This document shows, piece after piece, positions 5,902 to 6,608 of a stretch of 7,108 nucleotides of DNA (its first letter is position 1; the number at the start of each line of letters is the position of its first letter). Source of the stretch: Alphaproteobacteria bacterium (GTDB lineage Bacteria > Pseudomonadota > Alphaproteobacteria > UBA6615). The stretch lies in NCBI GenBank assembly GCA_030831135.1, contig JAURLR010000205.1, forward strand, positions 1 to 7,108, given 5' to 3'. Both the position numbers and the translations under genes were made by a program. Below the pieces are notes generated by a model. That model ran no database searches, was not told the origin of the DNA, and saw only the letters and a list, made by a program, of their open reading frames with translations.

Positions 5902-6546
5902 CTAGAAAACGTAAATTTCCGTGAATGCCTGCTTCAAGTCCGGCCCCAAAGAAATACGTCCGGAATTATCTGACAGGGAAACCGCACTGTGGAGAAACTT
6001 CATATCGACAATGCCAAATGCACTGGCCATCCCCTTAACGACACAGTGGGCTTCCTCCGCGTCAGGGAGAACACTGTTAACCAGCACGATCGTCGTTGTT
6101 ATGCGGTAATGGGAATCGACGACATGATGGATATGGCAGTCTCGTTCCGCGCCAATTCGACGCCTCATATTCTCTCCGTAAGGCCCCGATCCAAAGACAC
6201 TCATCAGCACTGATTTCGTCAGACCATCTTCCGAGTCAATAATCGCATCGAATCCTTGGTCTCGCAGAATCATAAAATTGGGTGCGGTGTTCGATTGCTT
6301 GATCTTAATGCCACTCCAAGCCTCCATCGCCGCAACCACTCCACGAATTCCGTACTCCTGATATTCATCGAAAGGGAACAGGGTAAAGGCGTCAGGCACG
6401 AAGGCCATAAGCAGACTGGCTGTGCGAAAAAAGACAGGTTGATTTTCTGCCTGAGCAACCTGCTTTGCTGAATCAACCTTCGCCGTTTCTGCGGCCGACG
6501 TTCCCACGTTCCCACGTTCCACAGCAGACAAATGGCGAACGCGCAT
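5902..6546 (-). CDS. Hypothetical protein, body of a probably exported protein separated by frame from its signal peptide; weakly DUF2927-like
   Basis: Read from the ATG at 6546 the frame gives 214 residues with no recognised enzyme motif. The last third (AERDCHIHHVVD ... AHCVVKGMASAFGIVD ... SLSDNSGRISLGPDLKQAFTEIY) has the order of cysteines, helix and SxSD-like segment seen in DUF2927, a family of unknown function with many putative lipoproteins; this is a weak memory-based match. The ATG at 6546 has no ribosome site, and its first 15 residues look like noise. A well-placed ATG at 6608 with a strong ribosome site opens another frame that encodes a signal-peptide-like start, and an 8-base tandem repeat at 6498-6520 separates the two frames. 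Loss of one repeat unit would give one protein of 232 residues (5902-6608). The gene is therefore either a recent pseudogene, phase-variable, or truly starts inside. It is AT-richer than its neighbours. Confidence 0.55.
   Translation of the reverse strand: MRVRHLSAVERGNVGTSAAETAKVDSAKQVAQAENQPVFFRTASLLMAFVPDAFTLFPFDEYQEYGIRGVVAAMEAWSGIKIKQSNTAPNFMILRDQGFDAIIDSEDGLTKSVLMSVFGSGPYGENMRRRIGAERDCHIHHVVDSHYRITTTIVLVNSVLPDAEEAHCVVKGMASAFGIVDMKFLHSAVSLSDNSGRISLGPDLKQAFTEIYVF
6498..6520. repeat. 8-base tandem repeat (2.9 copies of ACGTTCCC) at a frame junction
   Basis: Units are ACGTTCCC at 6498-6505 and 6506-6513, then ACGTTCC at 6514-6520 followed by A. Eight is not a multiple of three, so each gain or loss of a unit shifts the frame of any gene across it. 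Slippage or recombination between such units is a known cause of reversible or permanent frameshifts. Confidence 0.9.
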
Positions 6547-6608
6547 CCGGTCAATAATCGGACGAGGCTCCTATCGCAAAACAACAAATACTTGGAATTC
6601 GATAACAT
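6498..6608 (-). other. Out-of-frame start and signal-peptide-like segment of the 5902 gene
   Basis: From the ATG at 6608 the frame encodes MLSNSKYLLFCDRSLVRLL and then TGCAFAICLLWNVGT before the repeat. The stretch LVRLLTGCAFAICLLW is a charged-then-hydrophobic segment typical of an export signal; LLTGC also fits a lipobox, though the hydrophobic part before that Cys is short. The ATG overlaps the stop of the acyl-CoA synthetase gene as TGATG. In the sequence as given, this frame runs on through unrelated arginine-rich residues to a stop at 6270. With one repeat unit removed it would continue as NVGTSAAETAKVD, the body frame. Confidence 0.6.

Follow-up and report, generated by a model that had tools for sequence, protein, structure and literature searches.

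Results and discussion

A recent slippage duplication of a single 8-base unit has probably broken what would have been one gene for an exported protein in the alphaproteobacterial contig studied here (7,108 nucleotides, hereafter the window). We commit to reading the present state as an off allele or a fresh pseudogene, and not as a dedicated switch.

A tandem repeat at the junction of two reading frames

The locus consists of two overlapping frames on the reverse strand. The first opens with an ATG at 6608 (6273..6608, 112 codons) and combines a signal-like start with an out-of-frame, arginine-rich tail. The second, hereafter the body frame (5902..6546), runs for 214 codons from an ATG at 6546 to a stop at 5902 and encodes a conserved domain belonging to a small family; a TAG just upstream of 6570 closes it. 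The frames change at an 8-base tandem repeat (6498..6520, reverse strand; unit ACGTTCCC on the forward strand, GGAACGTG on the reverse), for which Tandem Repeats Finder gives a period of 8, 2.9 copies and 100% matches. As the two ATGs lie 62 bases apart, the body frame is shifted by two positions, and a single 8-base unit has the size needed to separate the frames. An 8-base change at the repeat puts them in phase (707 - 8 = 699). The first-pass annotation had described 2.9 repeat copies at the frame junction, a 214-residue body out of frame with the ATG at 6608, and a single 699-base frame once one unit is removed; all of this is confirmed.

That annotation had also considered a chance coincidence of these features unlikely. 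Comparable arrays are scarce: a sample of 669,205 bases from this genome (28%; 100 of its 389 contigs, window excluded) contains not one perfect array of at least 2.5 copies and at least 20 bases with a period of 4-30, and the 23-base three-copy motif itself occurs once in the 2,384,285 bases of the assembly. A genome of the same genus (G004) carries one array of this class in 379,001 bases, with a 6-base unit. Two-copy 8-base arrays of at least 16 bases are not rare (13 in the same 669,205 bases), so a two-unit ancestor, as presumed here, would be unremarkable and it is the third copy that stands out.

The start at 6608 and its signal-like stretch

Upstream lies the C-terminal part of an AMP-binding (acyl-CoA ligase-type) enzyme (6608..7108, reverse strand; PF13193, E = 2.2e-18), whose stop TGA (6610-6608) overlaps the ATG (6608-6606) as TGATG. 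The GAGGAGA that had been reported seven bases ahead of this ATG is indeed present, at 6616-6622. Its Shine-Dalgarno-like core GAGGAG (6617..6622, reverse strand) also codes for two ligase glutamates and need not be selected as a ribosome site; similar purine-rich letters stand at this position in L007 and L008, which lack this gene behind them. For both reasons the motif gives a ribosome site weak support.

The predicted hydrophobic core of the signal peptide spans residues 19-29 of the 6608 frame (6522..6554, reverse strand; mean Kyte-Doolittle 2.38), and the repeat follows it directly, that is, within the 5' region coding for the predicted leader. Signal-like character, and with it export, is gauged here by hydrophobicity (Kyte-Doolittle, best 11 residues), by which the 6608 frame scores 2.38 against 0.35 for the frame starting at 6546. 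A start this hydrophobic turned up in 507 of 20,000 random sequences free of stops and in 110 of the 2,539 that began with ATG. Codon usage over the first 60 bases does not favour the 6608 frame (score -13.9), the N-terminal part being short, and the frame, used unaltered as a query in the protein search, found no relative.

Homologues carry a hydrophobic N-terminus in frame with the body

A search of about 5.8 billion proteins yielded three clusters, and seven when a profile was used. Excluding the window's own cluster, six distinct homologues are available: P0002, P0003, P0004 (the protein of genome G019), P0005, P0006 and P0007, the last cut short at its C end. Every one of the six has an N-terminal hydrophobic stretch in frame with the body (Kyte-Doolittle 2.24-2.82, best 11 residues). 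Relative to these homologues, in all of which signal-like start and body share a frame, the window thus carries a frame-disrupting lesion. The N-terminal part of the 6608 frame resembles that of P0003 (z = 4.5; none of 400 composition-preserving shuffles was as good) and, weakly, those of the other five (z 1.0-1.7, p 0.07-0.17). For the 6546 frame the corresponding values range from -0.4 to 2.1, the best being P0007, which fits this frame better than the 6608 frame (z 2.1 against 1.4). The stretch before the repeat is signal-peptide-like and most likely part of the body's gene, as the first-pass annotation had proposed; the six in-frame hydrophobic stretches and the P0003 N-terminus speak for its proposal.

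The main result against a break by slippage comes from the same homologues. P0002 and P0003 begin with Met-Arg at the alignment column of the ATG at 6546 (the conserved QPVFF comes 35 residues later), and in the 6546 frame a BLASTP alignment of P0003 with the 214-residue reading reaches as far as residue 3. Either chance or the remnant of a second, nearer start could account for this. The earlier annotation had named a start at 6546 in all homologues, with the same N-terminus, as evidence against its reading; two of the six do start at this position, but with a hydrophobic N-terminus, which the 6546 frame of the window lacks.

Repeat number in public data

The annotation had suggested comparing two and three units among homologues. 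No two-unit protein was found among the roughly 5.8 billion searched, whether the body, the profile or the 6608 frame served as query. G019, the sole homologue readable as DNA (the others being available as protein), lacks the 8-base repeat. The three-unit, 214-residue reading represents a public cluster of nine members on nine contigs, the longest of 11,129 bases (the window contig has 7,108); the three units are those of the representative, and a member with two units may be present among the nine. Taken together, a cluster with a three-unit representative and the lack of any two-unit protein speak against an assembly error and, to a slight degree, against frequent switching. The nine-member cluster could also reflect a stable and possibly functional state.

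The body is intact and probably a distant relative of DUF2927

No stop interrupts the body through its 214 codons. Of the 43 columns that do not vary among five full-length homologues it keeps 41 and departs from two; the same count made for each of those homologues, left out in its turn, gives departures from 5-9 of 46-50 invariant columns. Neither stops nor invariant columns thus reveal any further decay, so the break would be recent at most. Two cysteines of the body frame, Cys137 (6136..6138, reverse strand) and Cys168 (6043..6045, reverse strand), are invariant in all eight aligned rows, a count that takes in the window and includes one protein twice. Such a pair would fit an oxidising compartment and suit an exported protein. 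A periplasmic location is likely.

Domains of the DUF2927 family have a two-cysteine layout, which was the reason for a comparison. A profile-profile alignment with DUF2927 (PF11150) matched over 113 columns with a probability of 87% and an E-value of 4.2e-6 (for a single comparison), against 0.36 and 0.099 for two unrelated control alignments, and Cys137 and Cys168 align with both conserved cysteines of DUF2927. The likeness has limits: DUF2927 rows read CFHEE or CIVEE after the second cysteine where the window has CVVKG, and no Pfam family matches the window protein at E-values up to 10, leaving it below the PF11150 gathering cut-off. Of four alignment members, none matches PF11150. We describe the body as a putative distant relative of DUF2927. 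The window's own genome contains no DUF2927 match, the body has no match in NCBIfam, and a sequence search for a relative of solved structure returned none (best E = 0.53). A lone match of one homologue to Mtd_N (E = 0.15) is ascribed to chance. Literature searches on DUF2927 returned nothing.

An accessory gene in a variable slot

The gene is accessory and occupies a variable slot behind the ligase, since G019 alone of the 14 family genomes compared shares it in this slot and other genomes have other frames there. Counting the window's own genome, the gene is present in two of 60 relatives, two of 24 genomes of the family and one of 385 of the class. Among genome contigs, a DNA search returned one homologous locus, in G019 (SI074_bin10, Rhodospirillaceae bacterium), and among viral contigs none. 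In G019 the gene is one 234-codon frame whose ATG overlaps the stop of the corresponding ligase, with flavin-reductase and hemerythrin-domain genes beyond it in the same arrangement as in the window, where a convergent flavin-reductase-domain gene (4896..5600, forward strand; PF01613) closes the slot. When the best ligase match was taken with 1,500-base flanks from 14 genomes of the family, the region so taken included the flavin reductase in eight and this gene in G019 alone; in G004 the slot is occupied by another open frame, whose translation is hydrophobic. G+C content is lower at 5701-6600 (0.49-0.54) than at 4801-5850 and 6601-7050 (0.58-0.62). Promoter and terminator scans gave results at about the level of shuffled sequence (2 against a mean of 0.8, and 1 against 1.0).

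Several further features of the neighbourhood may be recorded. In L007 and L008, of the same genus, the space between flavin reductase and ligase is taken up by other open frames that translate into hydrophobic sequence (in L008 as judged by eye). Between the window and G004 (L056), the flavin-reductase stretch (4887-5600) is 95% identical in DNA and 98% in protein, against 88% for the ligase stretch and 80% for 1-4782, an excess that might reflect recent exchange of the flavin-reductase gene. Two 77-base copies (4030-4106 and 5630-5706) are 91% alike, and the second contains an internal inverted repeat (5641-5669 / 5677-5705), as in an interspersed palindromic element. Paired inverted repeats of the GTCATGCCCG type lie at 4791-4882 and 5787-5872; the stretch 5786-5872 has a 77% match beside the G019 flavin reductase, and inspection by eye shows similar letters in this slot in further genomes of the family.

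Weighing other explanations

The first-pass annotation had also raised the possibility that copy number switches the protein between exported and absent or cytoplasmic forms. Under such phase variation the unit count would change often enough for selection to act, export being on with two or five units and off with one, three or four. The arrangement is suitable, as the unit is not a multiple of three, lies in the leader-coding region one step from an in-frame count, and is followed by a body that is undecayed in the off state. There is also a precedent in the opa genes of Neisseria, described as carrying pentamer CTCTT repeats in the region coding for the leader peptide (PMC3960869, PMC3899988): there as here, a non-triplet tandem unit in the (here predicted) signal-peptide-coding region sets, by its number, the frame of the mature protein. 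However, opa-type arrays are long, pure and hypermutable, whereas the present one, though pure, has 2.9 copies of an 8-base unit in one gene with no variation observed. This is few for a contingency locus, repeat number being named as the main determinant of repeat stability in the review PMC3899988. Nor was any copy-number variant present among the proteins searched, or any array of this kind in the 669 kb sampled from this genome. We consider switching unlikely. In a mycobacterium described as genetically stable, a change in the copy number of tandem repeats has been proposed as phase variation (PMC12817950), but as reported there it concerns promoter repeats with measured variation, in contrast to a coding sequence in which none is seen. 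Literature searches on marine bacteria and phase variation returned nothing, those combining tandem repeat, signal peptide and Alphaproteobacteria returned RTX proteins only, and no such switch in this lineage turned up in the literature searched. A narrower proposal, and one we think slightly less likely again, is a minimal octanucleotide switch between two and three units in a signal peptide, outside host-associated pathogens and in an alphaproteobacterial lineage known from draft genomes, which would toggle export of a DUF2927-like protein; the off form would be common in nature and the body kept intact by frequent return to on.

Three further explanations leave out switching altogether. 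The three units might be fixed and the protein might work in the cytoplasm, without a signal peptide, as 214 residues from the ATG at 6546. The undecayed body, the representation of a public cluster by this very reading, and the Met-Arg starts of P0002 and P0003 with the BLASTP reach of the latter all favour such a product; yet the 6546 frame lacks the hydrophobic stretch found in every homologue, no clear Shine-Dalgarno sequence is visible by eye before this ATG, and the conserved cysteine pair would better suit an exported protein, which together make it improbable. That the real genome has two units and the third is an assembly or sequencing error gains something from the draft state of the genome, with its 389 contigs, but the 23-base array is shorter than a usual short read, and the three-unit reading represents a cluster spread over nine contigs, including one longer than the window, though the three units are those of the representative; we hold an error to be slightly more improbable still. 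Finally, a ribosomal -1 frameshift at T TTT TTC (six T, then C; 6426..6432, reverse strand) could join the signal frame to the body at the conserved Phe-Phe-Arg and so yield an exported protein with a changed linker. Read in the 6608 frame, the heptamer is phased so that a -1 slip would lead into the body frame, and runs of exactly six A or six T number 80 in the 669,205 bases of the genome sample (0.12 per kb). Against this, in the body frame the run codes for the Phe-Phe of VFFRT, kept in P0002 and P0003, which gives it another reason to exist; the sole RNA fold considered (6480-6620) lies around the repeat and not the heptamer and is no stronger than shuffles (z = +1.06); and the linker and alanine-rich cleavage region would be lost. 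Such frameshifting strikes us as very improbable.

How the gene would have been broken

The preferred reading, a recent duplication of one unit by slippage, would run as follows. With two units, start and body would have formed one 232-codon frame. Slippage at the short repeat between the hydrophobic core and the cleavage region would then have added a unit. With three, ribosomes starting at 6608 would make a 112-residue product, losing the frame right after the hydrophobic core and with it the cleavage region and the cysteine-bearing body, so that no exported protein would result; at most, the body would be made from the ATG at 6546 without a signal. Since reverse slippage would restore the frame, the state would in principle be reversible. 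We infer the ancestral count of two, no two-unit allele having been found, and likewise the loss of export, its recency and its reversibility. The same frames would also result if one or two bases, and not an entire unit, had been gained or lost near the repeat. That the gene had just been broken by slippage was the other possibility raised in the first-pass annotation, and the undecayed body, with 41 of 43 invariant columns kept, fits it.

Implications

The locus is a clean case in which the frame is broken at a tandem repeat inside what is likely a signal peptide while the body behind it is still intact, and it places a small unnamed family near DUF2927. If two- and three-unit forms coexist, it would show that even very short arrays serve environmental bacteria as on/off switches; if they do not, it would illustrate how a gene in an accessory slot has been lost very recently.
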